The translations under genes were made by a program, and so were the position numbers. Below are positions 4,028-45,890 of a DNA stretch of 64,000 bases, piece by piece. Position 1 is the first letter of the stretch. Each line of letters starts with the position of its first letter. The stretch is from positions 45,322,001 through 45,386,000 of the forward strand of contig CM034546.1 in NCBI GenBank assembly GCA_020055645.1. Reading direction: 5' to 3'. The stretch is from Tomocerus qinae. Taxonomy: Eukaryota; Arthropoda; Collembola; Entomobryomorpha; Tomoceridae. The notes beneath the pieces were generated by a model. The model saw only the letters and a program-made list of their open reading frames with translations. It was not told the DNA's origin and searched no databases.

Positions 4028-4113
4028 CAAGGCACCTTAAAAGTACCTGACGCAGGACTTGTCCTATAATATTCATGATTAGTGCTGTGTCAGGTACTTT
4101 TGAGGTGGCTTGG
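4028..4113. repeat. Short inverted repeat abutting a zinc-finger exon
   Basis: The arm caaggcacct..agtacctgac (4028-4050) is mirrored by gtcaggtact..aggtggcttg (4089-4112), with an unpaired middle of about 40 bases. The right arm ends where the frame of the next finger array opens. That array starts with a finger lacking its cysteine half. It could be one end of a small palindromic transposon or a stem-loop. Confidence 0.6.
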
Positions 4114-5237
4114 CAAGAAAAGAAAATAAAGAGTGGGATATTCTTAATCAAAAATCAGCACTAAATGGACATATAAAACGGCATACCAAAGAAAAGCCAC
4201 ACAAATGTAGGGAATGTGACAAAACGTTTGCAGTAAAATCTAAAGTGAAAATTCATATGAGGATACACACCGGTGAAAAACCATTCAGCTGTGAAATCTG
4301 TTTCAAAAGATTTACCCAGGAGGGTAATTTAAGTCATCGAAAAGTGCACCAAGTTGATAGAAAGAAATTATTCCCATGTAATATCTGCGGAAACAAATTT
4401 AGTGAGAAATCAGGTGTGAAAAAACATATTTCACAAGTTCATACAAAATATTCTGTGATGCCATTTAGTTGTGAACATTGTGGAAAAGGGTTTACTGTCA
4501 AAGGATATCTGACTTCGCATCTTTTAGTACATGTTGGTGAAAAGAAATTTGAATGTACTTATTGCGAAAAAAAGTTTTTAAGAAGAACGGCACTTAAAGT
4601 ACATGTAAGAACGCACATTGGCGAGAAATCTTTCGGGTGTGGATTTTGCGGCAAAAGATTTGCAAGCAGTAGTAAGCTGAGGATCCATATTGCGATGCAC
4701 ACTAAAGAAAAGTGGCTGTCATGTGATAATTGCCCGAAGAGATTTAACACCCACTCAGCTTTAAAATGTCATTTGAAAACCCATAGTGAAGATGTGAAAG
4801 AAAAGTTTTCCTGCAGTCAATGTAATGCAGTGTATAGTTATAAAACAACATTGAATGCCCATATCAAATTTAAACACAGTGGGCTAGAAAAGCAATTTGT
4901 GTGCGATATCTGTGGAAAGTTCAAGTTAGAAAGCCATAAAATAACGCACAGCAGCGATAAACCGTTTTCATGTATACAATGCAATAAATGTTTTAAAAGG
5001 AAAGAAGGTCTCCTTCTTCATCTCAAAATACACGAGAACGCCAAGTCCTACAGTTGCAGTCTATGTACTAAACGATTTAATCACAGATATGGACTTAGTC
5101 AACATCTCACAAGTCACAAAATTTGGGCCTATCAAAAAAGGGAGAATCAAATAATGCTGAAAACACAAAATATGAACATACTGGCAATTAGCTATTACCC
5201 ACTCCTAAAAAGGTTACTAAACAAGATATTTGTATAA
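4110..5237 (+). CDS. C2H2 zinc-finger array protein, 5' end incomplete
   Basis: One long open frame, about 375 residues, is almost entirely C2H2 fingers with TGEKPF-like linkers (IHTGEKPFSC near residue 55). About eleven fingers can be counted. The first lacks its cysteine pair (only SALNGHIKRH remains). The third is one residue short between cysteine and histidine. One near residue 275 (CDICGK then FKLESHKITH) has lost about five residues. Proteins of this type bind DNA in the nucleus. There is no ATG at the 5' edge: the frame opens just after a TGA at 4101-4103 and its first usable codon is TTG, so an upstream exon or a truncation is implied. A 3' tail of about 35 residues without fingers ends at TAA 5235-5237. 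A strong donor-like sequence follows at 5247, so this array and the next (5323 onward) may once have been one gene. Confidence 0.75.
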   Translation: MARKENKEWDILNQKSALNGHIKRHTKEKPHKCRECDKTFAVKSKVKIHMRIHTGEKPFSCEICFKRFTQEGNLSHRKVHQVDRKKLFPCNICGNKFSEKSGVKKHISQVHTKYSVMPFSCEHCGKGFTVKGYLTSHLLVHVGEKKFECTYCEKKFLRRTALKVHVRTHIGEKSFGCGFCGKRFASSSKLRIHIAMHTKEKWLSCDNCPKRFNTHSALKCHLKTHSEDVKEKFSCSQCNAVYSYKTTLNAHIKFKHSGLEKQFVCDICGKFKLESHKITHSSDKPFSCIQCNKCFKRKEGLLLHLKIHENAKSYSCSLCTKRFNHRYGLSQHLTSHKIWAYQKRENQIMLKTQNMNILAISYYPLLKRLLNKIFV

Positions 5238-15617: not shown

Positions 15618-15970
15618 TATTAATTATTCATAGCATTATAACAGGTGAAGGTGTAGGTGGCAACCCTCACTCACGACCACCATGTACAATAAGCATGAAC
15701 CAAGCATGTATACTTTAATGATAATAATTTATTAAGGAGTATTTCAAAGTCACATACTTATATAGTCAATATGCTGATTATAAATTGCAAACAATATAGC
15801 TAAAATTAAAACACATACCTACTTCATTTACTTCAGTGGAACAATTTATACTGTTTTATCCTTTGCTCGATTTTTTGCTATTACTTCGCATTTTTGAATT
15901 ATCCCCTATGAGCTTACTGGTTTTGATGAGGTTACACATAGCTACACACAAGACTAACTATAAAAGTTAC
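15618..15970. other. Intergenic, nothing recognised
   Basis: AT-rich sequence left where the pseudogene loses its upstream exons. No supported gene or bounded repeat. Confidence 0.4.
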
Positions 15971-16404
15971 TCTAAAATGATAATATTAAAACTAACATGA
16001 ATTCATGCTCAATCGAGTATCCATGGTATACTTTTTTTAAATTATCTCTAGATAGAAGCATGAAGCAACATCAAAATGATTTTCTAAATATGAAACAGAA
16101 GCAACCAAATCAATTTGACATGATTTCCTGCTTAATTTTTGAATAGATTCCCAATGGTAATTAAAAACCGCATGTCACGTTAAAATTAACGTTATTTCAT
16201 GATTTTATTCACCACGACCACGACAAATCTATTCAGAATGTAAAAATGAAATTATGTCAAATTGACGTGGTTGCTTATGTTGCATTTTAGAAAATAATTT
16301 TGACGTTGCTCGATGCTTCAATCTAGAGATAATTAAAAAAAGTGTACCATGGGTATACTCATTTGAGCATGAAATCATATTAGTTTTAGCATTATTGTTT
16401 TAAG
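15971..16404. repeat. Foldback element with long inverted arms
   Basis: The left arm (about 15971-16165: actaacatgaattcatgctc, ccatggtatactttttttaa) and right arm (about 16205-16404: ttaaaaaaagtgtaccatgg, gagcatgaaatcatattagt) are diverged reverse complements. The centre is short. No coding frame. It is probably an old foldback or MITE. Confidence 0.7.
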
Positions 16405-16611
16405 TAGCGCGTAAGGTATTCAATTATCAATCTGTCTGAAAAAGGAAATAAAAAATATTTTGTTTATTCAAGTTAAAATCAAGAAACAGATGTTTTTTTT
16501 TTACAAATAATCACGTTTCTTATATTTATTTCTATTTTACTAAACCTAAGTTCTAATATTTATTGATAATTATTGCGAAACATCCGAACATACGGTTTAC
16601 AATAGAATGGG

Positions 16612-17391
16612 TTAATATTTATTTTGAAGCAAATGATAAGACTCGTACACACTTCCTGTCAATTGTGTGTTGAGAGTTCTTAAAAGATGATCATCAGGAA
16701 TGGAATTTTTTTCCAGGAGTGAACTTTTTGCCCAGCGACCGCATAAAATTTTCACATCTTCTTCCGTTATGCATCTTGGTGGTCCTTCGAAGACATTTTT
16801 GTCATACTCAATTGACTGGAGCAAATAGCGAAACCTATGACCTACATTTATAAAACTAAATAAGTTTATTGAACGACTAAAATATATTTTTTGAATTAGA
16901 AAATCTGTACAAATTATTATGTTACCAGGTTTAGCACGTGACATAACACTTCTCCTAATCAGGTCCGCATATGGACATCGGAGGTAATATTGTATTGCAG
17001 TGAGAGATGAACGATCCCAGATAACGTCAAAAGGACCCCAATTTTCAATTGGACACATCTGAAAATTTCCACTATAAATAATTAATCTTCCGTCGCTTGT
17101 GCTATAAGTGGAACTTTCCTTGTCAAATTCCAGCCCAAGGGAATTTTCTTTGTCCAAGTCTTCAATTGCTTGGTCTACATATTCAATTCCGAAAACGGTG
17201 TGGCCTAAACTAAGTAAGAAGGGAATATCTTTTGTTTTTCCGCACAAGGGAATAAAGAATTTTAGAGCAGTTCGTCCCAACGTTAAAATCTCTAAATATT
17301 TCAATAACTTAGGATGAATATCGTTCAGTTGCCAACCAGTTCGGTTATTTTCCCAACGCTGAGACCAATACGCTTTTCCTTCACTTGGCAT
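16612..17391 (-). CDS. Thiopurine S-methyltransferase-like protein, copy B
   Basis: Two exons, 17391..16926 and 16841..16612, with an 84-bp GT-AG intron in the same position and phase as copy A, give 231 residues. The start MPSEGKAYWSQRW is chosen to match copy A; an ATG four codons upstream (17403) is the alternative. Motifs match copy A: TGWQLNDIHPKLLKYL, FFIPLCGKTKDIPF, FDVIWDRSSL. The intron is a multiple of three and free of stops, so an unspliced transcript would encode a protein with 28 extra residues before GHRFRYLL. Copy A cannot do this. It lies within the right-hand copy of a segmental duplication. A SAM-dependent methyltransferase with unknown substrate. Confidence 0.86.
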   Translation of the reverse strand: MPSEGKAYWSQRWENNRTGWQLNDIHPKLLKYLEILTLGRTALKFFIPLCGKTKDIPFLLSLGHTVFGIEYVDQAIEDLDKENSLGLEFDKESSTYSTSDGRLIIYSGNFQMCPIENWGPFDVIWDRSSLTAIQYYLRCPYADLIRRSVMSRAKPGNIIICTDFLIQKIYFSRSINLFSFINVGHRFRYLLQSIEYDKNVFEGPPRCITEEDVKILCGRWAKSSLLEKNSIPDDHLLRTLNTQLTGSVYESYHLLQNKY

Positions 17392-17984
17392 TTTAATCTT
17401 CAAAAAAGTAAACTTTTACGTTGCTTAATAAGTAACTATAGTAGTTACTTCAACGTCAATGTTGAACTGCCTTGTTTATTATCACAGAATAATAATGATT
17501 TTAGGCAAGAAAATTTTTATTCTTTTCACTGTTAATGCTAGCTCCGAGGTTTAGTTATAAATATACAAGTTTTTCCTTTTTCTACTTGTTAGAGATGTCA
17601 TGTACCTAAGACACAAATGGTTAATTAAGTCAAAATATAAAATTATAATAAACCATTCAATTTTAGAATCAATTAAATTTAATAAATATTGTCTTTGCTG
17701 TATAACTTAATGATTTTAAGAATCGTTATTCGTCCTAAATAAAAATTTAAAGCGAGGTCAGTGAAACTGGAAACCCTACTTATTACTTAGTACCCTATTT
17801 AAAATGCATAATTAAATTTATGTGTACGTAGTACCTATCTATCATTAGCATTAAGCTATTATTTACTACATGCTTAAATTACACGTATAACTTTGTAATC
17901 ATTTCTGGAGTAAGATCATTAAAATATACTAATTGGCCATAAGCTAACTATAATATTTACCCACCTACCTACCGTAGATTTGTA

Positions 17985-18597: not shown

Positions 18598-18842
18598 TAA
18601 TATTAGCAATATAATATAAAATTATATAAAATTATATAAAATTTTATATAAGATTATATAAAATTTTATATAAAATTATATAAAATTTTATATAAAATTA
18701 TATAAAATTTTATATAAAATTATATAAAATTTTATATAAAATTATATAAAATTTTATATAAAATTATATAAAATTTTATATAAAATTATATAAAATTTTA
18801 TATAAAATTATATAAAATTATATAAAATTTTATATAAAATTA
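18598..18842. repeat. AT tandem repeat, unit about 22 bp
   Basis: About eleven units of ttttatataaaattatataa type with few changes. Each unit is itself nearly palindromic. No coding content. Confidence 0.9.
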
Positions 18843-20963: not shown

Positions 20964-22316
20964 CTAAAGTCTCACTAGGCCATAACCTTCCGGGTTGAAA
21001 TCTTTTTGTGCTGCTGTAGTAAACTTTTTAACCCGGAATTCCTTTAGTAGATAATGCACGACGGCAATAAACCATATGGTAAGAAAGAAATCTGCGATGT
21101 CCAAAAATGATCGTAGAGTAAGTACAGAAATAAGACTGACACTGACAAGAGGAAGGCTTAATCCCAAAATAATTGCCCGAAAGATGAGCCACAATTTCAA
21201 TGGGAATGGTGATTCCTGAAATATATAAAAGATTTCCACAATTATTAAAATTATTTAAATAAGTTACTTTCAAATAAGTAAAAATTAACCTTTCGAATCC
21301 CGTACAAAAGTATAGCGCCGAAAAAAATGATGACAACGCCAAAGAAAAGATATATTCCCGAAACGATAAATGAAAATATGGAGACCACAGCAGCAGCCTC
21401 TAAAATAAATAAACAGTACATTAAAAAGAAGCTGATAAATCTTACGATTAATTCAGTTTCCAAATATCTGGACTTCAGAATGGTTTAAAATGGGCTAGAA
21501 GTTAAAATTATTATGAATTTTCCCGGAGAAATAATGCTTTATAGCTAGAATTATTTTTTGTTCCCATTTTTTGTCCTTTGAGACAATGACCCACATTGAC
21601 GCAAGCCATTCTCTTGGCGTCAGTTATAGTCATTCATTACCATTACCGTAACGACTTGCATCAGCTAATGAATATTCTAGCATGGTTCGTGCCAATGTGC
21701 ATTTATTAGCAACCGAACATCGATTCTCATGTAAGACCAGAATATCGCTACAGAAAATTATAACAATTGAAAAGATAGAATTTCAAATGAGAATTGAAGA
21801 ACATTTTACCTTGAAAACTTGAGTCAAAATGAGAAGTCTTATTTCTGTGAAAATTGTCTTTTACATAATCATCTAATCGGTCCGCGACAACTGGAGCTGA
21901 TAGCGCTATGACCAGAGCTGACACCGACATGATAATTTTTATGATGCCCAATACCTGAAAAGAGAAGTGATACGGTGAACGTATATTTTTTAAAGATACC
22001 TTTAATAAATTTTCAACAATTTTGAATTGAAAGAAACTTTTGCTAAATAAAAAATAGAAAAAAATAGAAAAAAATAAAAATAATGCTTAAAAGTTGACCC
22101 GAATGTTATGATAACAACAAAGAATTTTAATGGATTAAACTTCTTTGTAACTAAACTAAAGTATCATTATAAAAATCGGCATTTGTTTGTTTTACAATTT
22201 TTGAAGCTTCATATAAATAAAGCAATAGAATAATAAAATCTTACTATATCGAGAAGTCCGATGATTATTCCTCCTATTTTCAGGGGCAAACAGCAACACA
22301 ATTTAGGAGATTCCAT
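20964..22316 (-). CDS. Four-helix membrane protein of about 192 residues
   Basis: Four exons, 22316..22245, 21954..21810, 21399..21290 and 21215..20964, with consistent phases (0, 1, 0), give 192 residues. The N-terminus is MESPKLCCCLPLKIGG, a cysteine cluster before the first helix, as in many arthropod LAPTM- or DUF4728-type four-helix proteins. Helix 1 is about residues 13-45. A 25-residue loop (RLDDYVKDNFHRNK) carries a possible N-glycosylation site, NKT. Three more helices follow (SIFSFIVSGIYLFFGVVI, LWLIFRAIILGLSLPLV, FFLTIWFIAVVHYLL), then a basic and polar tail ending GYGLVRL. It is probably an endomembrane or plasma-membrane protein; function unknown. Exon 1 with its promoter side is duplicated at 28399..28479. 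The exon-3 acceptor could shift by three bases. Confidence 0.78.
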
Positions 22317-23570
22317 TTTTACCTGAAGTTAATAAACTGAAAAGATGAATATTAATATTTGTAATGCTTACTGTATTTTACTTCTTTTATTGTAATTCAA
22401 TTTCTGTACTGTGAATGTAATGGAAATTCGTTTTGATTTTATATCTGTGGGTATTCGAATTTGTCTTACACTTTCCTAGTAGTAACCTCTTGTTAGTATT
22501 AGTAGTAGAGAGAGTGTGAGTCCATTTCTAGGAATGAGTGTATACCTGAAATCCATAATTATGACGTACAGGCGAAGTCAGGTAATAAACTGGTATTTAT
22601 CTATTTATGTCCAATGCTGTTTTATATGAATTGTACGTCATAATGTAAGAAATCCCCACCGTGTGAACAAAATTGAAGGAGAAAATTCACAGATGCAATA
22701 ATTCTAAGAAAAAATGGAGAAATTACATTTATTTTTATACTGTAATGTAATACTGTTTACAGTTTAAAGGTGACAACATTGAGGCAACAATCGTTCACTC
22801 GAAAAATGTTAATCTTATCTTTTTCATACAGTAGTGTACAGTGTATCTAAATCCTATTATCAATTCACAGCAGCGGTATTAATCACACAATTTGCAAAAC
22901 AATAAATAAACCTTCATTCAAGCAATACTGGGAAAGTCAATATTTTGTCGTTTTATATGTCATTTTCTGTGAAAGCAAGTAATAGCAAATAGTTCAGACT
23001 CATTCATTTAGTGACGCAAGTAGTCATACTCACCATCTATATTATCTTAAAAAGATTTGTGAGGTAATTTATAACTTATCAATATACCAAATTGTTACCA
23101 AACTACATTAATTACATACCTATATCAAGTAATAATACATACACGAGGTGATACAAATATAGTACCTATTTTTAACTGTCATATACATTCAATGGTAAAT
23201 TTAGTAGAGTTGAGTTATACTAGTTGTACTTATGAAATTTAAATTTAGAAATTATGTTACTGATTATTGTCCCTAATTATTTAATGTTTTATTATATGGT
23301 TAAAACTATTATTAGTTTTATTTACATTAAGTAGAAAACATCAACAATCCCAAGTATTTTATTTTACAAACAGCTATAGATTTGTCAGGTCCAAATTAAT
23401 AATATTTTATGTACTATAATTATTAATATCGAAATTTAATACAAGTTGGGATTCATTATTGGGAGAAGAACCATCGAAAACATTGATAATTATACATTGT
23501 GAATAGACTATTATGCTATTTTCAGCCTTCACAAATGGACTAGGTTAAGCAATCATTATAATAATAGCTA
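22317..23570. repeat. Segmental duplication block X (partners 28480-28690 and 34500-35530)
   Basis: 22317-22535 (flank of the four-helix gene) recurs at 28480-28690. 22560-23570 recurs at 34500-35530 in the same orientation, from ggtaataaactg to cacaaatggactaggttaag, with small differences such as an extra short piece near 34545. No gene is seen inside. Confidence 0.8.
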
Positions 23571-24232
23571 CACAAGTACCCTTTAGCATCAAGATACGAG
23601 GTTCAAATTTTTACTGGATGTTCATCTCATAGTCAGAACCTCAAATGATCATTTTCATAACGATTGGTTTCATAGAAATCGTTTTATGATTTTTTGAAAA
23701 TCAAATTTTAACATGGGAGGGATAGGGAAAAACTCAAACTGCCAAACCTATCTCCTCCTACAGTTTTCAACCAATCTCCATCAAATGTTTTTTGAAGCTT
23801 CTAAGGACCAATATTGAGGTCTTCAAGTGGCGGATTTTTGATATTTTGATTCTACGATTTTTAAAAGAATTTCGAAAATTCAATTATCCATTCGTGCTTC
23901 TCCGTGTATAAGGGGCTACAGTGCAGTGACTACGCACTGTAAATACGACCATGGCCCACATAGGTGGCGCATGTTCTCTTTCCCTTCAGCTTTATCTACA
24001 CCTGCTCGGTTGTTGGGGCTGCGAGAAACGAACAGTTTAGTTTCAATAAACATGAGGTGAAACAGAAATAGATTTTTTGGTTCTTCAGTTTTCATCTTTG
24101 AATATCTGTCAAATAATTCAAGATTTAAAATAAAATAATTGGACCAAATAACATATAAGGGGCAATTAAAATAACACGTTTAATTAAGGTGACGGGATAT
24201 GTTAAAACTAATTAACGAAGGAGGATTAAAAT
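23571..24232. other. Insertion flank left of the minisatellite
   Basis: This stretch has no counterpart at the matching point of the duplicate (35510), so with the minisatellite it forms a block inserted into, or lost from, one copy. No gene recognised. The last 60 bases contain degenerate versions of the minisatellite unit. Confidence 0.5.
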
Positions 24233-27075
24233 GGGTTATTGAAAATAACGGGGTTATTGAAAATAACGGGGTTATTGAAAATAACGGGGTTATTGAAAAT
24301 AACGGGGTTATTGAAAATAACGGGGTTATTGAAAATAACGGGGTTATTGATAATAACGGGGTTATTGAAAATAACGGGGTTATTGAAAATAACGGGGTTA
24401 TTGAAAATAACGGGGTTATTGAAAATAACGGGGTTATTGAAAATAACGGGGTTATTGAAAATAACGGGGTTATTGAAAATAACGGGGTTATTGAAAATAA
24501 CGGGGTTATTGAAAATAACGGGGTTATTGAAAATAACGGGGTTATTGAAAATAACGGGGTTATTGAAAATAACGGGGTTATTGAAAATAACGGGGTTATT
24601 GAAAATAACGGGGTTATTGAAAATAACGGGGTTATTGAAAATAACGGGGTTATTGAAAATAACGGGGTTATTGAAAATAACGGGGTTATTGAAAATAACG
24701 GGGTTATTGAAAATAACGGGGTTATTGAAAATAACGGGGTTATTGAAAATAACGGGGTTATTGAAAATAACGGGGTTATTGAAAATAACGGGGTTATTGA
24801 AAATAACGGGGTTATTGAAAATAACGGGGTTATTGAAAATAACGGGGTTATTGAAAATAACGGGGTTATTGAAAATAACGGGGTTATTGAAAATAACGGG
24901 GTTATTGAAAATAACGGGGTTATTGAAAATAACGGGGTTATTGAAAATAACGGGGTTATTGAAAATAACGGGGTTATTGAAAATAACGGGGTTATTGAAA
25001 ATAACGGGGTTATTGAAAATAACGGGGTTATTGAAAATAACGGGGTTATTGAAAATAACGGGGTTATTGAAAATAACGGGGTTATTGAAAATAACGGGGT
25101 TATTGAAAATAACGGGGTTATTGAAAATAACGGGGTTATTGAAAATAACGGGGTTATTGAAAATAACGGGGTTATTGAAAATAACGGGGTTATTGAAAAT
25201 AACGGGGTTATTGAAAATAACGGGGTTATTGAAAATAACGGGGTTATTGAAAATAACGGGGTTATTGAAAATAACGGGGTTATTGAAAATAACGGGGTTA
25301 TTGAAAATAACGGGGTTATTGAAAATAACGGGGTTATTGAAAATAACGGGGTTATTGAAAATAACGGGGTTATTGAAAATAACGGGGTTATTGAAAATAA
25401 CGGGGTTATTGAAAATAACGGGGTTATTGAAAATAACGGGGTTATTGAAAATAACGGGGTTATTGAAAATAACGGGGTTATTGAAAATAACGGGGTTATT
25501 GAAAATAACGGGGTTATTGAAAATAACGGGGTTATTGAAAATAACGGGGTTATTGAAAATAACGGGGTTATTGAAAATAACGGGGTTATTGAAAATAACG
25601 GGGTTATTGAAAATAACGGGGTTATTGAAAATAACGGGGTTATTGAAAATAACGGGGTTATTGAAAATAACGGGGTTATTGAAAATAACGGGGTTATTGA
25701 AAATAACGGGGTTATTGAAAATAACGGGGTTATTGAAAATAACGGGGTTATTGAAAATAACGGGGTTATTGAAAATAACGGGGTTATTGAAAATAACGGG
25801 GTTATTGAAAATAACGGGGTTATTGAAAATAACGGGGTTATTGAAAATAACGGGGTTATTGAAAATAACGGGGTTATTGAAAATAACGGGGTTATTGAAA
25901 ATAACGGGGTTATTGAAAATAACGGGGTTATTGAAAATAACGGGGTTATTGAAAATAACGGGGTTATTGAAAATAACGGGGTTATTGAAAATAACGGGGT
26001 TATTGAAAATAACGGGGTTATTGAAAATAACGGGGTTATTGAAAATAACGGGGTTATTGAAAATAACGGGGTTATTGAAAATAACGGGGTTATTGAAAAT
26101 AACGGGGTTATTGAAAATAACGGGGTTATTGAAAATAACGGGGTTATTGAAAATAACGGGGTTATTGAAAATAACGGGGTTATTGAAAATAACGGGGTTA
26201 TTGAAAATAACGGGGTTATTGAAAATAACGGGGTTATTGAAAATAACGGGGTTATTGAAAATAACGGGGTTATTGAAAATAACGGGGTTATTGAAAATAA
26301 CGGGGTTATTGAAAATAACGGGGTTATTGAAAATAACGGGGTTATTGAAAATAACGGGGTTATTGAAAATAACGGGGTTATTGAAAATAACGGGGTTATT
26401 GAAAATAACGGGGTTATTGAAAATAACGGGGTTATTGAAAATAACGGGGTTATTGAAAATAACGGGGTTATTGAAAATAACGGGGTTATTGAAAATAACG
26501 GGGTTATTGAAAATAACGGGGTTATTGAAAATAACGGGGTTATTGAAAATAACGGGGTTATTGAAAATAACGGGGTTATTGAAAATAACGGGGTTATTGA
26601 AAATAACGGGGTTATTGAAAATAACGGGGTTATTGAAAATAACGGGGTTATTGAAAATAACGGGGTTATTGAAAATAACGGGGTTATTGAAAATAACGGG
26701 GTTATTGAAAATAACGGGGTTATTGAAAATAACGGGGTTATTGAAAATAACGGGGTTATTGAAAATAACGGGGTTATTGAAAATAACGGGGTTATTGAAA
26801 ATAACGGGGTTATTGAAAATAACGGGGTTATTGAAAATAACGGGGTTATTGAAAATAACGGGGTTATTGAAAATAACGGGGTTATTGAAAATAACGGGGT
26901 TATTGAAAATAACGGGGTTATTGAAAATAACGGGGTTATTGAAAATAACGGGGTTATTGAAAATAACGGGGTTATTGAAAATAACGGGGTTATTGAAAAT
27001 AACGGGGTTATTGAAAATAACGGGGTTATTGAAAATAACGGGGTTATTGAAAATAACGGGGTTATTGAAAATAAC
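24233..27075. repeat. 18-bp minisatellite, about 158 nearly identical units
   Basis: The unit is ggggttattgaaaataac. Throughout 2.84 kb I see one internal change (gaaaat to gataat near 24350). At the right edge, 27076-27190, the units decay (ggttattgaaaaagacc, gggtgattgaaaatgac). Each unit holds the inverted pair GTTATT/AATAAC around a GAA loop, and one GGGG run. Because 18 is a multiple of three, two plus-strand frames stay open (repeating VIENNG or LLKITG). Third-position changes are as absent as all others, so this is better explained as a recently expanded VNTR than a protein. The displayed copy number may be approximate if the assembly collapsed or expanded it. Confidence 0.95.
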
Positions 27076-27190
27076 GTGGTTATTGAAAAAGACCGGGTGA
27101 TTGAAAATGACTGGGTTATTTTAAATGACGTGATTATTTAAAATGACGCCTATTTACAATGATGGGGTAATGTAAAATGACGTAGTGATT

Positions 27191-27410
27191 GAAAATTATA
27201 TATTATGTCCTTATAATATTAATGATATAATGAAAATCAGGCGCTAATGTAAGGGCTTCAAACATTTACTTTTCGCTGTTTGGTCAAATGATGCTGAATC
27301 TGGCACACTATTATTGCTTTTTTAATGCATAATGCACACTTATGACCCCTTAATGAGTAACCCCATTAAGGGGTTACCCATTTCCCGTTCGGAGAACGGG
27401 CCTATTACTA
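27191..27410. other. Insertion flank right of the minisatellite
   Basis: Unmatched in the duplicate. Contains the short hairpin gagtaaccccattaaggggt and ccgttcggagaacggg near 27354-27400, just before duplicated sequence resumes. No gene. Confidence 0.5.
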
Positions 27411-28231
27411 GTAAACTGTATAATACGCTCATATGGTAAGCCATATTATAATAAATAAAGGCTATATCATACAATAAGTGCATGTCTACCTCTAAGAATA
27501 TAAATTGGACATAGATAAAAGTATGTCAAAGCCAAAAGTCAGTATTGATTAGAACTGCAATTTATATATTATTCATTTGTATTGAGCTTTAGTATAGCAT
27601 AAATTTATAGACATCTACATATATTAATATATCGGACAGGAAAAGGTACGGATTAAAACGTCTTTAGACATTAAATGAACTCTCTTTTAACGTGCTATGA
27701 TTTCATTATGCATTTACACTGTCTATAATCTACATCACATACATGTACAAGTATCTCATGTAATCTCTATAATTAATAGCACCGTAGTAAGTTTTCAATA
27801 CCTGCAAAAAATCAAAGCTTATTGCAAGATTTGAGAGACGTTAGTAGGATTATAGTCGAAAATGGGAATGTAAACTAAATTTCTCACCATGCAGGCAATT
27901 AGGTTCTGATTTTAAAAACATTACGTAACTATTTTCTACTTCTTAGAATTCCTATGATATCCATTAAAATTCGATGAGCAATCAGGTTTGAATATTGGCA
28001 AATTGGCATGGAATTGAGTAAAGACATAAATTCATCTTCGTTAAGCAATATTGAGCTAAATAGCTGCCCTAACCAAATGCATTCGGATTTGGTCATTTTT
28101 TTCATCGTCTTGGCATCACCAATAATTTATGATGATTACGCATTCGGATCTTCCTCTTTACAATACCAATAATTGCAATGAGGATAGGAAAACAGGAAAG
28201 TGCAACCATTGTACATGCAGAGCAATAATAG
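27411..28231. repeat. Segmental duplication block Y (partner 35510-36309)
   Basis: The sequence from tataataaataaaggctat to tgcagagcaataatag matches 35530-36309 in the same orientation. It carries the last part of a CUB-LDLa gene at its right edge. It joins at 28229-28265 to about 36 bases (tagacaaagctagattataa and on) that match 20452-20480. Confidence 0.82.
28102..28231 (-). pseudogene. 3' tail fragment of a CUB-LDLa gene
   Basis: 130 bp nearly identical to 36180-36309, encoding only the membrane helix (CTMVALSCFPILIAIIGIV type) and basic tail of the family's last exon. The LDLa module and all upstream exons are cut off at the duplication breakpoint. Non-functional. Confidence 0.85.
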
Positions 28232-28398
28232 ACAAAGCTAGATTATAATACCAGATTTGGTAGTTGATTGCCGAATGTTCTGATAACAACAAAGAAAATT
28301 AATGGATAAGTATCATTATAAATATAGCGGCAATTTTATTCTGTTTTACAATTTTTGAAGCTTAATGTAAATAAAACAGTATAATACCAAAATCTTAC

Positions 28399-28479
28399 AA
28401 TGTGAAGAAGCCCGATGATTATTCCTCCTATTTTCAGGGGCAAACACGGCAAACAGCAACACAATTTTGGAGATTCCAT
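28399..28479 (-). pseudogene. Orphan first exon of the four-helix membrane protein
   Basis: Starts MESPKLCCCLPCLPLKIGG and ends with a phase-0 GTAAG donor, like 22316..22245, but with a nine-base tandem duplication (extra CLP) and a DI to HI change. The other three exons are missing; CUB-LDLa-derived sequence lies downstream instead. Its upstream flank (28480-28690) is conserved, so it may still be transcribed. Confidence 0.8.
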
Positions 28480-28690
28480 TTTTACCTGAAGTTAATAAAC
28501 TGAAAAGATGAATCTAAATATTTGTAATGCTTACTGTATTTTGCTTATTTTATTGTAATTCAATTTCTGTAATTATGAATGTAATGGAAATTCGTTTTGA
28601 TTTTATATCTGTGGGTATTCGAATTTGTCTTACACTTTCCTAGTAGTAACATTTTGTTGGTAGTAGAGAGAGTGTAAGTCCATTTCTAGG

Positions 28691-29231
28691 AATGAGTCAG
28701 GGTGGGGCACACCAACCAACCCATAACACTACAAAGCAGACTTAATTTAGAAAAATGAAATTCTGTTAAAGAAAAATCGCACCAGAATCAAATTTCTGAT
28801 ATTTTAGTTTTTATTGCCTTAATATTATAATATAGAGTGAATAGTTTCATTTTAGCATCAGACTCTGTTTTAAAGCAATACCTCTGCAATAATCTAGTTT
28901 TGCAAGACTAAGTTCTAACGTCATGTCCTTATACATATTTATAAAAACGGTACAATATTAAACTATTTTATCATGCCATTACTAATAATAAAAAACAAAG
29001 TCTTAAACAAATAGAGAGCTATGCTATTTTTGAAAATCAAAAGACGAATGAAAGTGCTACTTAATGGCACGAACGTCAACCATAATGATCGTTATTAGAA
29101 TAATAACACGACATTCAATGATGCTTTATTTTCGTGGTAAATGGACGTAACGTTTTACTGCTTTACAAAGAAAATAATAAAAATGTTTTATTTTTCAGCG
29201 ACATATTACTAGAGACAACGTTAATTCCAGA
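28691..29231. other. Intergenic, nothing recognised
   Basis: AT-rich with no supported gene or repeat boundary. Confidence 0.45.
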
Positions 29232-29875
29232 CAGGGCATGAAAAAGGCAAAAAGCTACCTTTTTGCCTTTTTGCTTGCCTTTGTGCCTAGCAAAATCAGC
29301 AAAAAGGTTACCTTTTTGCCTTTTTGCTGTTAAATGGGGTAATTGGCAATTGACATGTTAACCACCAAGGATGTGAACAAGAAATACGATTTTAAAAAAC
29401 AGCAATTCTTAATTATCTTCAATAATTCGGTCATTCATTAGACAATAAAACAATCGAAAACAACAAACTAACATTGTAAGCAATTTTAAGAAACATGAAA
29501 AAAACAAGAACCCAGAGCTGTGCTAACCAGTAACAGTCAAATACTGGATATTTTGGTTGAGCTGATATATCTCATATAATATTGTACACAATACGCAGAT
29601 ATTTGACCATGGCTCATTTTTTATTATACGGTTTGTCACAAATACATTATAGTTCATTTTAAATTGTTTAGTATTAGTAATAAATAGCATAATAATCAAA
29701 AAAACTAACTAGCATCTGCAATTTATCTTAATATTTGAATGTGTAGGACGGGACAGTCTACAAAAGTTAGCTTTAATGAAGTATCACAGGTGGCGGTGAC
29801 TACTCCAAAAAGGCACAAAAAGGCAAAAAGGTAGCAAAAAGGCAAAAAGGTGAAGGCAACCTTTTTTATGCCTTG
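29232..29875. mobile_element. hAT-like MITE with GGCAAAAAGG arms, copy 1
   Basis: The left end cagggcatgaaaaaggcaaa and right end ttttttatgccttg are inverted repeats, with subterminal ggcaaaaagg runs. The flanks attccaga and attccggg agree at six of eight positions. The interior is homologous, in inverse orientation, to 43813-44505. Non-coding. Confidence 0.78.
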
Positions 29876-30041
29876 ATTCCGGGAAAAGAAATTTCTCTGA
29901 TATTCAATCCCCCATTTACTACATTTAGGAGTAAAGTAGACTAAGGCTTTTTGTCATACAGTCATACCTAATATCCTCATAAACTAAAAATGCAAGGAGG
30001 TCAACTATATCAAAGATGGAAATGGCCTCATAATTCGATGC

Positions 30042-34499: not shown

Positions 34500-36179
34500 A
34501 TAATGCAGGTAATAAACTGATATTTACCTATTTATGTCCAATGCTGAACAGCACTGGACAGCACAACATTTTATATGAATTTTACGTCATAATGTAAGAA
34601 ATCCCCACCGTGTGAACAAAATCGAAGGAGAAAATTCACAGATGCAATAATTCTAAGAAAAAATGGAGAATTTACATTTATTTTTATACTGTAATACTGT
34701 TTACACTTTAAATGTGACAAAATTGAGACAACAATCGTTCACTCGAAAGTTAATCTTATCTTTCTTATCCAGTAGTGTATAGTGTACTTACTAAATCCTA
34801 TTATCATTTCACAGAGCGGTATTAATCACACAATTTGCAAAACAGTAAATAAACCTTCATTCAAGCAATACTGGAAAAGTAAATATTTTAACGCTTTATA
34901 TGTCATTTTCTGTGAAAGCAACTAATAGCAAATAATTCTCAAATGCTCTATACTAAATGTAATCGCAAATTAATCAGACTCATTCATTTAGTGACGCAAG
35001 TAGTCATACTCACCATTTATCTTAAAAAGATTTGTGAGATAATTTATAACTTATCAATATACCAACTTGTTATCAAACTACATTAATTACATACCTATAT
35101 CAAGTAATAATACATACACGAGGTGATACAAAATAGAAGCTATGTTTAACTGTCATATAAATTCAAAGTTAAATTTAGTGGTGTTGAGTTATACTTATGG
35201 AATTTAAAATTAGAAATTATGTTACTGATTATTGTCCCTAATTATTTAGTGTTTTATTAAATAATTAAAATTATTATTACTTTTATACATTAAGTAGAAA
35301 ACATCAACAATTACAAGTATTTTATTTTACAAACAGCTAGAATCATCAGGTTCAAATTAATAATATTTTATGTACCATAATTATTGATATCGAAATTTAA
35401 TACAAATTGGGAGAAGTGTTGAACCATCGAAAACATTGATAATTATATAATTGTGAATAAACTATTATACTATTTTCAGCCTTCACAAATGGACTAGGTT
35501 AAGCAATAAACTATATTTTATAATAAGCTCATATTGTAATTGTAAGCTATAATAAATAAAGGCTATAGCATTCAATAAGTGCGTGTCTACCTATAAGCAT
35601 ATAAATTGTACATAGATAAAAGTATGTCAAAGCCAAAATCCAGTATTGATTAGAACTGCAATTTATATATTATTCACTTGTATTGAGCTTTAGTAGCATG
35701 AATTTATATAACTGCACACAATAATATATCGGATAGGAAAAGGTACGGATTAAAATGTCTTTAGACATTAAATGAACTGTATTTTAATGATTAAACTATG
35801 CACATACACTGTCTATAATCTACATCACATGTAGAAGTATCTCATGTAATCTCTATAATTAATAGCACCATAGTAAGTTTTCAATAGCTAAAGAAAATAA
35901 AAGTTTATTGCAAGATTTGATAGACGTTAGTAGGATTATAGTCGAAAATGGGAATGTAAACTTAATTTCTCACCATGCATGCAGGCAATTAGGTTCTGAT
36001 TTTCATTACATACCTATTTTATACTTCTTAGAATTCCTATGATATCCATTAAAATTCGATGAGCAATCAGAATATCTGAATATTGGCAAGTTGGCATGGA
36101 ATTGAGTAAAGACATAAATTCATCTTCATTAAGCAATGTTGAGCAAACAGCTAGACTAACCCAATGCAGACCCTTCTTT
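34500..36179. repeat. Segmental duplication blocks X' and Y' (partners 22560-23570, 27411-28231)
   Basis: Here the two blocks are contiguous and run directly into the intact CUB-LDLa gene at 36180. This suggests this copy keeps the ancestral order, and that the left copy was split by the minisatellite-bearing insert. No other gene in the block. Confidence 0.78.
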
Positions 36180-37423
36180 TCATCGTCTTGGCATCACTAA
36201 TAATTTATGATGATTACGCATTCGGATCTTCCTTTTTACAATACCAATAATTGCAATGAGGATAGGAAAACAGGAAAGTGCAACCATTGTACATGCAGAG
36301 CAATAATAGCAATTGTTTTCATCGTATGCAAAATCCTTTTCATATCCGCAGTCAATCTTCCCGTTGCAGACCAAGTTTGATGGAATGCACGAAAAATTGT
36401 CTGCTGCCCCAGAACATGGTTTCCAATCAAAAATTTTTCTATCATTGCAATCTGTTATTCATATAATGACGATAACAATAATTATTAATTACGTCAATCT
36501 ATGACTTAATATACTCATATTAAGGATTTCAATTTAATTAAATGATATAATATAATACTTAATATAATATAATAATTATTGGGATGGCTTCTTACCTTTG
36601 ATATACGCGGTGAAAACAATTTCTGCTTTCAGAGACGATTTCTTGTTTTTGTATCCAAATGTGCTGTTGTCCACATGCACTCTGAATTCCAAAGATGGAT
36701 ATTCTGAGTAAAACGCCCTTTCTCCAATTAGTTTGGAATTATTGTACCCTCTGTCCTCTGTAGGAAGAAAGCCACATATTTTCCCAGAGTTACTTTGCTC
36801 GTCATCCAGACTGATAAACTAATAAATTTCCAACGGTATGACAATTAAAATAAAATCGGTGTACATATTTATATAATTGTAATACTTAATGCATTTGAAT
36901 TTAATCAATGATATTCTCCAACTGATTGAAATTTGACAATTTTATAAATGGCTATTTACCTCAATGAAATCTCGACAACGACTTCCATTCGTTGAATTTT
37001 CTGTTTCCAGCTTTTTCGATCGCATATTTAAATTTTGTACAACTGCCATTATACCTAGCGAACGGTTTTCTGTTTTTCCTCCTGGTATTATAGACACTTT
37101 GTACTCTCTTGTCAGACCGACTGACTTTTCATTCTCCATTTTCAGCTGAGCACTGAAGTCTTGATGTCTTTCCAGATATATTTGGCTGTTGTATTCAGTA
37201 ACATACGGAGAAATGTGCACAACTATAAAATGTAGATAAATATTCCATTTAAATATTTATTTTTAAAAAATTTTAATTGTACGTAGTTTTAGTGTGGTTA
37301 TACCTTACCTTTGTCAATTTTACGTTTTGGGGAATGACGAGAGTTGGATAAACATGTAAACTCTAAAAATTGACCCACAAGTAGAAGAATTTTTAATATT
37401 TTAACTGTTCTATAAAATTCCAT
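36180..37423 (-). CDS. CUB-LDLa single-pass membrane protein 1
   Basis: Four exons, 37423..37309, 37222..36960, 36818..36596 and 36451..36180 (phases 1, 0, 1), give 290 residues. A signal peptide (about 1-22, KILKILLLVGQFLEFTC) precedes a CUB-like domain, about 39-200, split by the exon 2/3 junction (CRDFIE, then GKICGFL, then EFRVHVDNSTF). An LDL-receptor class A module of six cysteines, about 202-247 (WKPC, NFSC, NLVC, KIDC, DFAYDENNC), comes next. A helix (about 250-272) and a short basic tail end in VMPRR. Domain knowledge suggests an extracellular binding or adhesion protein anchored in the plasma membrane; partner unknown. It is one of three intact copies (also 47497 and 55040) plus two relics (14690, 28102). 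Confidence 0.85.
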
Positions 37424-38705: not shown

Positions 38706-39404
38706 CATACTTTCCCACTGGGTACACTGCCAAGGGGGGTCTAATAAACGAATCTTGTACTTTTTCTGGGGGGGTGTAGGTGGCGCGAAATTTTTTTGAA
38801 AAGGGGGCACAGCGGTATAGGAAAACGACCATAAAATTTTTTATTAGTGATAAACAAACGCTGCCTTAAATGTCAATATTTTGTTTGAAGTATTTGCACC
38901 ATTACTAAAAATTAGGTATAAATGAGCATCACAGAGATTTTTGGACACATTTCATCATATATGCACACAATCCAGCCAAGCACGTATACAGAATTGAGTT
39001 TTGGAGGGGGCTAAGATTTCCAATAGATATTGTCAAGGTATATATTCGCGCGTAGCGCGAAAAATTTTTGGCATTTTTTGACTGAAATGAGTCTAAAATA
39101 TCTCTCTATACGTCCTTGAATCCAGCACGTCCCGCTGATATTAAAACAGTAATAATAAAATGTTTCAAAACATTAAAAATTAATAATGCATTTTCAGCGT
39201 ATCATTTAAATTTTGTTATTCATATTTAATTTGAAGTCGGCCAGGAGGGGTAGGCTTCTCTTTTTTGTGAGTTTAAGGTCTCCTGGCCGACTTCGTCGGC
39301 CAGGGGGGGGTCTCAAAACTTCTTAGGTCAAAGGGGGTACCTGGCCGACTTCGTCGGCCAGGGGGGTCTCCGTACATTACAGCATACCTAGGTGGGAAAG
39401 TATG
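38706..39404. mobile_element. Inverted-terminal element with nested hAT-like insertion
   Basis: The ends catactttcccac and gtgggaaagtatg are inverted repeats. The flanks aatcggg and aatcgga form a near-perfect short target duplication. The interior includes two copies of the palindrome ctggccgacttcgtcggcca (about 39282-39361) and G-runs. A 142-bp element of another family is nested at 38977-39118. No coding core. Confidence 0.68.
38977..39118. mobile_element. Nested hAT-like element, CAAGCACGTATAC family
   Basis: The ends caagcacgtatacagaatt and ctctatacgtccttg are inverted repeats, with perfect 8-bp duplicates aatccagc at 38969-38976 and 39119-39126. The body contains tattcgcgcgtagcgcgaaa. 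It gives the clearest evidence that this dispersed family transposes like hAT. Confidence 0.87.
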
Positions 39405-40292: not shown

Positions 40293-41240
40293 GTCAATGA
40301 CCCGAGGTTTTGTGTCAAGTTTGTTATCTCGATTACTGTAAAATGATTACTTTACTAATATCTGCCAATTTATATTACAGATATAATATTGAAATATTTG
40401 TTTTGACATTTTTTAAAAGTCTCTATTTATTAACGTAATTCTGAATAAAATTTTTTAGTACCTTTAGATGGTCACTTACAAGTAACAGTTATAGATGTTT
40501 ATTTCTAACTAGTGGACTCAGCTAAGGGGCAAATCTAGCACTCAAGAGAAATTCTGCAGGCCACCCATCACAGTAATAAAAACAATTTCAAAAAGATCCC
40601 TTAGGTTATTATGTTACCTTTGTAAATACAAAGTATATTTAAATTGATATACTTTTATTATCTACAGTGGTTGGTGAAATTAGCTGCAGCCCCAACTTCC
40701 TGATCAAAAGGAATTCCCTACACCGAAATAATAACTGTAGATCGTAGCATCAAATTCAGGGAACAATGAAAGACTCCATTTTTGAAAAAAATCCCACAAA
40801 GTCACCAAAAAGCTCCCTTTTTAAATCAAAGATTCTCCCTGGGATTTTGGAAATACGTACAAATTCCATGAGTACATCTTAGGAATAAATATTTTTAAAG
40901 AATAGATAGTTAGTTACCCAGTACTGTTATTCAACTCTACAAAAGGTGTGCCAACTGCCAAAGGAATCAAGAGGGTAGTAAAAAAGTAAACCCAGTTCTA
41001 AAAGTTTCAAATAAGTTTGTCGATATAACAGAACCAATTTGGATTAGCAATTTTGAAATGCTATTTAATAAGGCACATTACGATCACAACGAAATGACCC
41101 CTTTCGCTAATCATTTCCATTCAATCACGAATCACCACCATTCAACCTTCTTGTGTAAATTTCTATTATTGTTTTGATGTTACAACGTTACAATAATATG
41201 AAACGACTCAATTTGGTTGTTTGGAGGAATTAATGTTTTC
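40293..41240. other. Intergenic, nothing recognised
   Basis: AT-rich, no supported feature before the hairpin at 41241. Confidence 0.45.
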
Positions 41241-41312
41241 AATAATGTACCCCAACGCATACTTCCATGTACTAAATTTAGCACATGAAGGTATGCGTTG
41301 GGGTACATTATT
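41241..41312. repeat. Hairpin, 30-bp arms, just downstream of the SIAH-like gene
   Basis: The arms aataatgtaccccaacgcat (41241 on) and atgcgttggggtacattatt (41293 on) pair over about 30 bp with one small bulge and a 12-base loop. A diverged relative lies at about 49380-49460. It may be a foldback relic or a miRNA-like precursor. Confidence 0.7.
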
Positions 41313-41532
41313 AAATACGTTAGTTGGGCTTGCGAATTTTGCGTTTAAGAAACATGCATATATTACGTGTGCAGTTGATGGGAGGAGGAGGTACTCAAAA
41401 GTGTTGCAGTCAACACTTACGTTACACATGCAGGGGAGGGGGTTTTGCGTTACGTAGTATATGCAGGTTTCCTAAGCTCTCCTACCAGACAAACATAGAT
41501 AGATTCGTAATTTTTTCAACTCTAGGAGTATA

Positions 41533-44500
41533 TTATAGAATGAAATCCACTTTCTTACGATATACAGTTACACGAGTTTGCCCTAACTGTGTGTAGCTAT
41601 TAGTCATTTCATTACCATTGAATTCTTCAATACAAGTGATTTCACCCTTGATCCTATTAAGTAGAGCCTTAACATGTTTCTCCTTTCGTATTAGCTTATT
41701 TCCATCCCTGCAAATAGTAATCTGTAAAAATTTAAAAACTGCATTATATTATAATAAGTCCATAAAAGAAGATGTGTTATAATTTTTAATAACGTATTTT
41801 CATATTATTTTCAAACGGCGGCCAAAACTGGATTTTGCATTTTCACGCACCATCATCAGACGTAAATCGTGGCGGATTTCAAATTCTTCACCAAACTTAA
41901 ATGTGTATTCTTGTAATGTTTTATGTCCAGATTGATCTGTTACTTTTCTCTGCCATTTATTTTCTCCATGGGAGGTATAAATTATGTTAGCTAAGCGTGA
42001 AATGGATTGGAATTAAATTTAAAAATTATTTTTTGTAGTAAAAATTATAAAATGTATAGTGAACAATATTTAAATTATTCGGTACAGTTATATGAATAGA
42101 AAGAAATCAAATGAATGTTTTTGTTAATATTGAATATTGGTAAAAGCTTACACCAATCTTTATAGTAACCGGAAACATATTGGTAATTCCCTAAAATATT
42201 AAATTGTTTATAAAATTAGATAATTGTTTACGGAATTGTATTATACTCGTTCAAAAATCCTTGAGTTAGGTTGTAACATGCAGTTATCATAAAAAGTCAG
42301 GTAATATTTTGGTTTAGTAAATATCAAACACGTGTCCAGTAGAAGGCTGGGGAAGGGCGCAGCAACCCTCCTAAATCTGAGAAAAATGGAGGTTGTTTCC
42401 CAAAAAAGCCGAAAATTGCAAACTTTTTCCCCGCTTAGCGCGAACTTTTGTCATTCATTTGGTTGCGCCCCCCGTTGAACAAATTTCTAGATACGTGCCT
42501 GGTAAATAAAACCAAAATCCTGGCATTTTTCGTGCATAGACGAAGCAGCATTATAAAATCATGTTAAAATAGGTTATTAATTAATACATATATGTAGGAT
42601 TGTTATGTGTTATTTATTAATATTTGTAATAATTAATATAATAATTCTAAAGAACGTACTATCCAAGTTTTCACATAATTTCACACTCCGTTTTAATTTC
42701 ATTTTGGTAAATAAATGCACAATACGAATAATGGAAATAAAATTGATAAAGAGAAAAACTTACCTGCTAAATGTCCCAAGAGGTCGGGCGGTGGTTGGGG
42801 CATAATTTGAGGTAAGACATTTGAAGCTGCTGGTTTCGGCCGCTTGAGTTCTATTGACATAGCTTTTAAAATTTGTACTGGTGGTATAAGGTGATTCTCC
42901 ATGGCAAGACCTTCCTTAATGACGATTTTAATATTCCATGCTTTCGTATACCGCGTATGTGAAAATGAAAATTGGTGTACTATGTCCATTGGTAACCAAA
43001 AGTATCTCGAATCTTTTTCATATACTTTATCAATACTGACTACATTGCCTTGATATTTTAAAGAATGGGCCTGAAAAATATACAAATGTAAATTAAAGTT
43101 CCATTTTTAACTTTAAAATGCTTAAAAGCTATGAAGTATGTACATTGAAAGTGCATCTAAGTAAATACGAATCGTGAAACGTCCAGGGCAAATGTATTTA
43201 TAACCGGTATGTTAAATTTGTGTTTATTCGACTTGAAAATTAACCACTTAAGAAGGCTCACCACGCCTGCATAGCAACCGCATGGGCCTATCTAAATGCG
43301 TGTTAAAAATGCTTTACATCAAGCTTTATTTCTCCCGAAGGTTAAGGCCGATTTTTATGGGACTTACATTTTTGGAATCCTAGACTACAGAGGAACACAG
43401 GAGGGAGGATGGAATTTTTGATATTGTTGCTTTAAATGGTGCAAAAAAATCAACATTGTATAAAAACTAAAACTGATTCACTTTTTTTGGCATTTGATTT
43501 TTTAAAAGGCATTTAAAGCAACAATATCAAAAATCCATCCTTTGTTCCTCGATAGTCCAGGATTACAAAAATGTAAGTCCCATAAAAATCGGCCTTATCC
43601 TTTGGGAGGAATAAAGCTTGATGTAAAGAATTTTTAACACGCATTTAGGTAGGCCCATGCGGTTGCTATGCAGGGGTTGTGGACGACCTTAAAATCAATT
43701 TTAATTGTCGTAACTTCGTAACCATGCAATTTTATTTGCCATTTTGATTTTAGGATAGTCATACCCAAGGCATTTTATGTAAATGTAAAAAATAAAACAC
43801 TTTGTTAGGCATCAAGGCATGAAAAAGGTTGCCTTTTTGCTAGCAAAAAGGCAAAAAGCCACTTTTTGCCTTTTTGCTACCTTTTTGCCTTTTTGTGCTT
43901 TTTGCCTTTTTGGAGTAGTCACCGCCACCTGTGATACTTCATTAAAGCTAACTTTTGTAGACTGTCCCGTCCTACACATTCAAATATTCAGATAAATTGC
44001 AGATGCTAGTTAGTTTTTTTGATTATTAAACTATTTATTACTAATACTACACAATTCAAAATGAACTATAATGTATTTGTGACAACTGACAAACCGTATA
44101 ATAAAAAATGAGCCAGGTTTAACATCTGCGTATTGTGTACAATATTATATGAGATATATCAAGTCAACTAAAATATCTAGTATTTGACTGGTATGGTACT
44201 GGTTAGAACAGCTCTAGGTTCTTGTTTTTTCCCTCATGTTTTTTAAAATTGCTTACAATGCATGTTAGTTTGTTGTTTTCGATTTTTTTATTGTCTAATG
44301 AATGACCGATTGAAGATTAAGATAATTAAGAATTGCTGTTTTTTAAAATCGTATTTCTTGTTCACATTCTTGGTTCTCAAAATGTCAATTGCTCATTACC
44401 CCATTTAACAGCAAAAAGGCAAAAAGGCAGCTTTTTGGTGATTTTGCTAGGCAAAAAGGCAAGCAAAAAGGCAAAAAGGTAGCTTTTTGCCTTTTTCATG

Positions 44501-45890
44501 CCCTGTTAGGCATGTCAAGTATCATTGGTTGATAAAACTGCAGAAATTTCAGTTGCTGTTAATAATAACTTTTTGCTTTCGCGACTAACCTCTCTTTTAC
44601 TGGGTATATCTAAGATAACACCTTTTAAGTAAAATACGTAACTGTTCATGGCTGAAAAATTGTGTATATTATTATTATTATTGTGTGATTAATCTTTTAC
44701 ATGAGTAAGACTTGTTTCTGATATGGGGAGTAAAGTAACAATTGAATCTATCTGCCATGCTGATGTTTGGATTACATAATTCATTGGTTCATTACCTTGT
44801 ACACGACTTGTATTATTTTAATTTGGTATACGAATGGAAATGGATGAGACTAAAATTGAAATTCATTTTACTATGTATATTTAAAGACTATATAAAATCT
44901 TATCAACTCATTCATTTAAAGTTCGTCAAAAATTATTTCAATATACATGCAATATCTTTAAATACAAATACTTACGTCATTAGGGTTAAATAAAATCATC
45001 TTCACCGAAAACTGTTTGGCAGTTTCTACTGATCCGGCACAAATCAATTTCCAAAATATCGTAGCCCCTTTTTCATTTTTGTCGTCATTAACCTCGCTGT
45101 CCAGAAAGAAATGCTCATCAAAAGCAAAAAACGTTATGGGCAACCATTTTTGGGAATAATCTTTCCTTCCTTTATCAATACTGATTTCTTGCGAGATGAC
45201 AGCAACATTAGAATCAATTACAATAAATCTGTGATCAGTGACCATATGTTGTGAAATATCGCATTTTCGGACAATTTTATTACATTCCAGCCCAACTCTA
45301 CCTAATCCAAGGCGATTGCAGAAATCAGAAGCACTAGGAAAGTGATATTATATATTAATTTCTAGTACGTAAAATTATTTATGTTAAACAAAGGCAGATG
45401 CATAATGTGAATAATAGTTTAATTATCCCTTCTTGCAAATTTTTTTAAATCTTAAAGGCATTGGTTCCAAATTACCAAGACAAACAAAAAGAATAAACTT
45501 TTATCTCTTGATTGTATAAAACGCCTAAATTAATTTTGCAATTATTAATAAGAGTTTGTTTTCGGACTTAAAATATTGTTACCTGTATTTACAGTTCAAA
45601 ATGTGTTGATCTTGGTCCCTTGGTGTCAATCTCATTTGACAACCCCATTGCACATTGGGACATTTTTGAGTCATCAAATTTTCGACAACAAGATTTCGGA
45701 TACGAACCTCTGGCATAATTGCTCTACAAGTGGGACAATGCGTGATTCGCTCAATGCAGTTGGAGCAGACAAGATGACCGTGATGACATTGATACACTGG
45801 AGGATAAATCACTTCCATACAAACAGGACACTCAATTAATCTCAAGGCTTCCAAAGCCTCTATATTTAAGGTTGGTTCGGCAGATGCCAT
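41533..45890 (-). CDS. SIAH-like RING E3 ubiquitin ligase
   Basis: Six exons, 45890..45583, 45333..44976, 43070..42764, 42190..42152, 41990..41851 and 41721..41533, agree in phase throughout (2, 0, 1, 1, 0), giving 446 residues. The start is MASAEPTLNI; an upstream in-frame TTG is ignored. The C3HC4 RING is residues 21-55 (CPVCMEVIYPPVYQCHHGH, then LVCSNC, then CPTC), the pattern of seven-in-absentia ligases. A Cys/His region follows (WGCQMRL, HILNCKYSASDFCNRLGL, then CDISQHMVTDH), then a SINA-like substrate-binding region with aromatic stretches (KWLPITFFAFDEHFF). SIAH enzymes transfer ubiquitin to bound substrates. The protein is longer than classical SIAH (about 280-320). Exon 4 is only 39 bp. 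Exons 5 and 6 are less certain: reading through exon 5 gives a stop at 41800. Introns 2 and 3 carry three transposon-type insertions. Confidence 0.82.
42325..42501. mobile_element. hAT-like element in SIAH intron 3
   Basis: The left end is caaacacgtgtccag and the right end tctagatacgtgcctg. The flanks gtaaatat and gtaaataa agree at seven of eight positions. The body includes ctaaatctgagaaaaatg and ccccgcttagcgcgaac, as in sister copies. Confidence 0.78.
43253..43692. repeat. Foldback with about 190-bp arms in SIAH intron 2
   Basis: The left arm 43253-43440 (gcatagcaaccgcatgggcc, atttttatgggacttacatt) is mirrored by 43500-43692 with few mismatches around a centre of about 60 bases. A transcript through it would form a long duplex. 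No coding frame. Confidence 0.85.
43813..44505. mobile_element. hAT-like MITE with GGCAAAAAGG arms, copy 2
   Basis: The ends caaggcatgaaaaagg and cctttttcatgccctg are inverted repeats. Perfect 8-bp duplicates ttaggcat lie at 43805-43812 and 44506-44513. The interior matches 29232-29875 in the opposite orientation. It lies in SIAH intron 2. Non-coding. Confidence 0.88.

Follow-up and report, generated by a model that had tools for sequence, protein, structure and literature searches.

A uniform 18-bp minisatellite inside a likely non-autonomous Helitron of Tomocerus qinae

The window analysed here, a 64,000-nucleotide stretch of Tomocerus qinae DNA, contains a homogeneous array of 158 tandem 18-bp units that lies within a precise insert, the ends of which match those of a canonical Helitron, and that is followed on its 3′ side by seven decayed units; a paralogous segment elsewhere in the window contains the corresponding empty site. 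Taken together, these features make it very probable that a Helitron carried a short and varied array to this site, and that a palindromic variant of the unit was amplified later.

The insert and its ends

The insert is defined by comparison of two paralogous segments, copy A, which contains it, and copy B.

23553-27411, + strand: non-autonomous canonical Helitron, 3859 bp (1015 bp without the 158-unit array), assigned from the precise insert relative to copy B, the target between A and T, 5′-TC, 3′-CTAG and the subterminal hairpin
23553-23573, + strand: Helitron 5′ end, TCATTATAATAATAGCTACAC, preceded by A (junction with copy B)
27384-27400, + strand: 3′ subterminal hairpin CCCGTTC-GGA-GAACGGG, putative Helitron terminator (CTRR/hairpin scan, fold of 27340-27411)
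27408-27411, + strand: Helitron 3′ end CTAG, followed by the target T (junction with copy B)
34506-36309, + strand: paralogous copy B, with the empty target between A 35506 and T 35507 (self-BLAST, junction alignment)

With the array masked, self-BLAST pairs copy A (22579-23553 and 27419-28231) with copy B (34506-35507 and 35519-36309), and the two are 93.6% identical on the left and 92.0% on the right over aligned bases, with 99 and 43 gap columns (84.9% and 87.8% in the BLAST figures, which count gaps). Relative to copy B, copy A has exactly 23553-27411 as additional sequence, which gives precise limits to the insert that a preliminary description of this DNA had reported as missing from the duplicate copy; that description correctly placed the array in the insert and overlooked both its Helitron ends and the decayed units 3′ of the array. 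The junctions in copy A read AGCAA/TCATTATAATAATAGC...CCCGTTCGGAGAACGGGCCTATTACTAG/TAAACT and the empty site in copy B reads AGCAA/TAAACT, with no target duplication apart from a single T common to both junctions, which allows the insert call to shift by 1 bp. A direct repeat (22099-22539 and 28271-28697, 84%) flanks the region holding the Helitron copy.

Canonical Helitrons are defined, in a passage of PMC8969392, by a single 3′ hairpin, a 5′ TC, a 3′ CTRR and insertion between A and T, and a passage of PMC6544945 gives a 3′-end palindrome of 16-20 bp. The insert starts with TC (in TCATTATAATAATAGC), ends in CTAG, and lies between A and T with no target duplication when compared with the empty site in copy B. 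Its 3′ hairpin is a palindrome of 17 nt with 7-bp GC-rich arms, placed 7 nt before CTAG, and it forms in the predicted fold of 27340-27411. Terminal inverted repeats are absent: no inverted similarity clearly above chance was found between the outer 30, 60 or 150 nt of the two ends, the best match in the outer 30 nt (8/9 bases, inside the ends) being reached by 25/500 simulated pairs and the scores for the outer 60 and 150 nt by 152/500 and 273/500. Subterminal inverted repeats of the Helentron/HINE type are likewise lacking in the outer 150 nt by this same last comparison. A terminal-inverted-repeat transposon was considered as the carrier and rejected, there being no target duplication and the ends not being inverted copies of each other.

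Both strands of the window were scanned for CTRR motifs with a hairpin ahead of them (arms of at least 6 bp, GC of at least 0.5), which gave two sites, one on each strand. In 60 Markov simulations modelled on the window minus the array, such sites averaged 2.18 per window over both strands; under stricter settings (arms of at least 7 bp, GC of at least 0.7) the average was 0.017, and both window sites pass. The thresholds were chosen after the hairpin had been seen, and with two strict sites where 0.017 are expected this control probably underestimates what chance can produce. The telling point is the place of the hairpin, not its rarity: the + strand site ends exactly at the breakpoint, the base where the paralog resumes. 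The other site, at 39323 on the - strand, has a hairpin with 10-bp arms (GC 0.8, CCTGGCCGAC-GAA-GTCGGCCAGG) 13 nt before CTAA, which is followed by G rather than T, and is no clear Helitron end.

Within the window, self-BLAST found no second copy of the unique parts of the element, its 5′ and 3′ ends each match only themselves with up to 3 mismatches allowed, and no autonomous Rep/helicase partner was seen. A Helitron Rep/helicase is too large for 1015 bp, and any movement of the element would therefore need proteins supplied in trans. Pfam returned no match in four frames (three of the 24 frames of at least 25 aa over the 5′ part, and the first 36 aa of the array frame), and Rfam returned nothing on the window at gathering thresholds or on 23400-27600 at E up to 1. 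No tRNAs were found with a bacterial model. Searches of 23900-27400 against phages and plasmids, of the exact unit dimer in viral and genome contigs (the genomes being prokaryote), and of the two exact Helitron ends in viral contigs also found nothing, and such collections say little about an animal repeat.

The array and the units beside it

Three stretches of the insert contain, or may contain, the 18-bp repeat.

24155-24211, + strand: possible trace of older repeat units, weak (wraparound alignment)
24232-27075, + strand: homogeneous minisatellite, 158 x GGGGTTATTGAAAATAAC (direct unit count, TRF)
27076-27199, + strand: seven decayed units, one of them 16 nt (unit comparison, wraparound alignment)

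Minisatellites have units of approximately 10-60 bp, and the array has such short units arranged head-to-tail, 2844 bp in strict 18-bp phase. Exact copies of GGGGTTATTGAAAATAAC make up 156/158 units. The first unit, at the left edge, has T replacing the first G at 24232, and the unit at 24340-24357 has a single A>T located in the hairpin loop, which is the sole internal change. TRF scores the array at 5727 (24233-27148, period 18, 162.0 copies, 99% matches). The preliminary description of some 158 virtually identical units over 2.8 kb, with one visible internal change, is thus borne out, with the left-edge substitution to be added.

The array is polar, uniform on its left side and old and varied on its right. 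Directly 3′ of the uniform block are four units (27076-27147) with 3-4 mismatches each, and wraparound alignment traces the repeat to about 27196-27199, where three queries score 98, 128 and 127 and their shuffles reach at most 27, 25 and 26. Compared with GGGGTTATTGAAAATGAC, the six decayed units of full length have differences at 18/108 bases, and compared with the array unit at 23/108, the 16-nt seventh unit being left out of this comparison. Most of the decayed units carry AATGAC in place of the array's AATAAC; position 16 is G in 5/6 of the full-length ones and A in the array, and it is the A that gives the unit perfect 6-bp arms. These 3′ units point to an older and more varied array.

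The weak 5′ trace at 24155-24211 aligns to the array unit with a score of 27, which is reached by 1/100 shuffles of the whole 5′ segment and by 0/100 when just the last 150 bp of that segment are shuffled; two older-unit queries give it scores of 19-21, reached by 1-9/100 shuffles. It carries the AATAAC form, and because this form is present upstream of the array the order in which AATGAC and AATAAC arose is uncertain.

The hairpin attributed to the unit in the preliminary description, GTTATT-GAA-AATAAC, is present with perfect 6-bp arms in 158/158 array units and in 0/7 of the decayed units. When the unit is shuffled, 56/20000 sequences have 6-bp arms (loops of 3-5), and among random 18-mers of window composition 400/20000 have arms that long or longer. 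The fold energies predicted with DNA parameters are modest: for the G and C strands respectively, -2.4 and -2.0 kcal/mol in one unit and -19.8 and -16.0 kcal/mol in eight.

The strong strand bias claimed for the array is confirmed by GC skews of 0.62 (24001-26000) and 0.39 (26001-28000), against values within ±0.16 in the other 30 of the 32 bins of the window. A GGGG run does recur every 18 bases as described, but the long-loop quadruplex potential proposed along with it is weak. G-quadruplex motifs comprise runs of three or more G separated by loops of 1-7 nt, and the loops in the array, read directly, are 14 nt; G4Hunter gives 0.89 across the array (180 nt) and 1.28 in its best 25-nt window. 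Because of the 14-nt loops and the score of 0.89 the quadruplex idea is little supported, and quadruplexes in the array are possible but not strongly predicted.

Other features of the window

Ten frames of the window were compared with Pfam, of which seven match and three do not; the matches are to C2H2 zinc fingers (three frames), thiopurine methyltransferase-like proteins (two), a Sina-type RING protein (one) and, weakly and below the curated cut-off, a ligand-gated channel (one). The thiopurine methyltransferase-like genes are duplicated (3-1073 and 16587-17676, 82% DNA identity), with a frame of 175 aa in the former that is shorter than the 267 aa of the latter. An AT-only minisatellite at 18614-18842 (22-bp unit ATATAAAATTTTATATAAAATT, 10.5 copies) lies within an inverted repeat with 117-nt arms.

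Two copies of another element, at 29231-29880 and, inverted, at 43820-44506, match at 90% over 647 aligned columns and have short CAAAAAGG-type tandem repeats near their ends. The element has inverted ends, which read AGGGCATGAAAAAGGC...CCTTTTTCATGCCTTGA in the second copy. An apparent 8-bp repeat, TGCCTAAC, flanks this second copy and hints at a non-autonomous transposon of hAT-like type. Five self-complementary stretches of 98-450 aligned columns (43259-43681, 15968-16406, 57334-57528, 4012-4128 and 41228-41325) are possibly foldback or MITE-type elements. Related stretches at 14.7-15.6, 28.1-28.2, 36.2-37.3, 47.5-48.7 and 55.0-57.3 kb contain short cysteine-rich frames on the - strand that we take to be LDLa-like; the one such frame compared with Pfam gave no match. 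Beside the Helitron copy this family is represented by a short match only, at 28127-28231.

History of the array, alternatives and related systems

Copies A and B have diverged by 6-8%, whereas the 158 units contain one internal change, so the uniform block is either much younger than the duplication or has been kept uniform, in support of the recent expansion or homogenisation suggested previously. We propose that the two segments were duplicated first, and that a non-autonomous canonical Helitron, without a Rep/helicase gene of its own and presumably moved by a helper in trans, then entered one of them at a site between A and T. The element would have brought with it a short tandem array of 18-bp units that already differed from one another. 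Later, 5′ of these older units, a single variant in which GTTATT...AATAAC forms a perfect 6-bp palindrome would have multiplied to 158 copies. Slippage during replication or unequal exchange, aided by hairpins in single-stranded DNA, is the most likely cause, and the expansion would be too recent for mutations to have accumulated.

Because the divergence of the decayed units (18/108 and 23/108) exceeds the 6-8% between the copies, part of their decay appears to predate the insertion, and the older array was probably varied when it arrived. Alternatively, units at the edge of an array may mutate faster, which would weaken this argument about timing. The presence of perfect arms only in the array fits an expansion aided by hairpins, but this is a single event, and its direction is uncertain given the A form in the weak 5′ trace. 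A stronger version, in which the change to the perfect palindrome (AATAAC for AATGAC) licensed the expansion and hairpins drive the gain of units on a single strand exposed in Helitron rolling-circle replication or in host repair, strikes us as doubtful; were it true, Helitrons would not only seed hairpin minisatellites but also drive their growth. We propose no host function for the array.

Among the alternatives, the array could have grown during rolling-circle transposition itself, the displaced strand folding and copying or ligation adding units, such that it arrived ready-made. The unit hairpin (6-bp arm, GAA loop) is laid out like the terminator (7-bp arm, GGA loop), and rolling-circle replication is listed among the possible causes of Drosophila virilis tandem repeats in a passage of PMC3833285, but we consider this course of events rather unlikely. 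Kinship between the unit and the last 60 bp of the element is not beyond chance (score 15, reached by 13/100 shuffles; 10/100 and 63/100 for two older-unit queries; the reverse strand scores 17, a value that carries no shuffle count), and the idea that the unit arose from the 3′ end of the Helitron was rejected on the first of these counts. Moreover, the contrast between one internal change in 158 units and the divergence of the flanks suggests expansion after insertion, unless the insertion is very young.

The very high uniformity of the array might also lead one to suppose that the assembly has collapsed a more varied array or extended a shorter one. We regard such an artefact as improbable: a variant unit persists close to one end of the array and the units decay by degrees at the opposite end, the paralog aligns to both flanks, and a 2.9-kb array is within the span of ordinary long reads. 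Loss of the segment from copy B by deletion, with no insertion, is very improbable; the comparison rests on two copies only, but the breakpoints coincide with TC...CTAG, the A/T site and the hairpin, and a random deletion would have no reason to match these.

Least credible of all is that the array codes for a (VIENNG)n repeat protein of approximately 980 aa, even though an ATG frame of 980 aa crosses it and the first 120 aa of that frame match 11 PDB sequences with E of 1 or less, the best at 6.3e-06, since four of the six frames are open through the array as in many shuffled units, the first 36 aa have no Pfam match, 10/11 of the PDB matches have no single stretch that passes alone, and the frame terminates in a decayed unit. 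Shuffled units have exactly four open frames in 8480/20000 cases and four or more in 12188/20000, so the open frames are no evidence of a gene, and we take the PDB matches to be chance matches among repeats. A coding role was rejected on these grounds, and long open frames across arrays of this kind should not by themselves be read as genes.

The locus offers an empty site beside a filled one, a recognisable carrier, and a gradient from old to new units, which makes it testable how a short array borne by a transposon grows long and uniform.

Related arrangements are described in passages of several earlier reports. The Caenorhabditis elegans element HelitronY4_CE (PMC4039745) is, like the present element, a Helitron with short tandem repeats, of 15 bp and 40 bp; its units differ, and the passage makes no mention of a uniform 158-unit array. 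Insect Hel1 canonical Helitrons, as described in part of PMC6544945, have TC/CTRR ends, a 3′ hairpin and no target duplication as seen here, a likeness by description, with exemplar consensus lengths of 162, 257 and 195 bp compared to 1015 bp here without the array. Oyster HINEs of the Helentron type (PMC7492417, in part) are rolling-circle elements that also have central tandem repeats, but have subterminal inverted repeats and monomers mostly of 140-180 bp. The interspersed DINE-1 elements of Drosophila, proposed relatives of Helitrons, resemble the present element in their central tandem repeats and 3′ hairpin, but according to the passage in PMC2374699 lack TC/CTRR ends, have subterminal inverted repeats, and have units of about 50-500 bp. 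In D. virilis, tandem repeats derived from Helitron-2 have a 154-bp unit, with four copies in the element consensus (PMC3833285, in part), and a passage of a review (PMC9659126) treats the spread of satellite-like arrays as having Helitrons among its sources. Tandem repeats within Helitrons are thus already known, and by this comparison the locus can be regarded as a further example that needs no new mechanism. The length and uniformity of the array are striking, but it is mostly an ordinary case of mobile DNA with a tandem repeat that later expanded.
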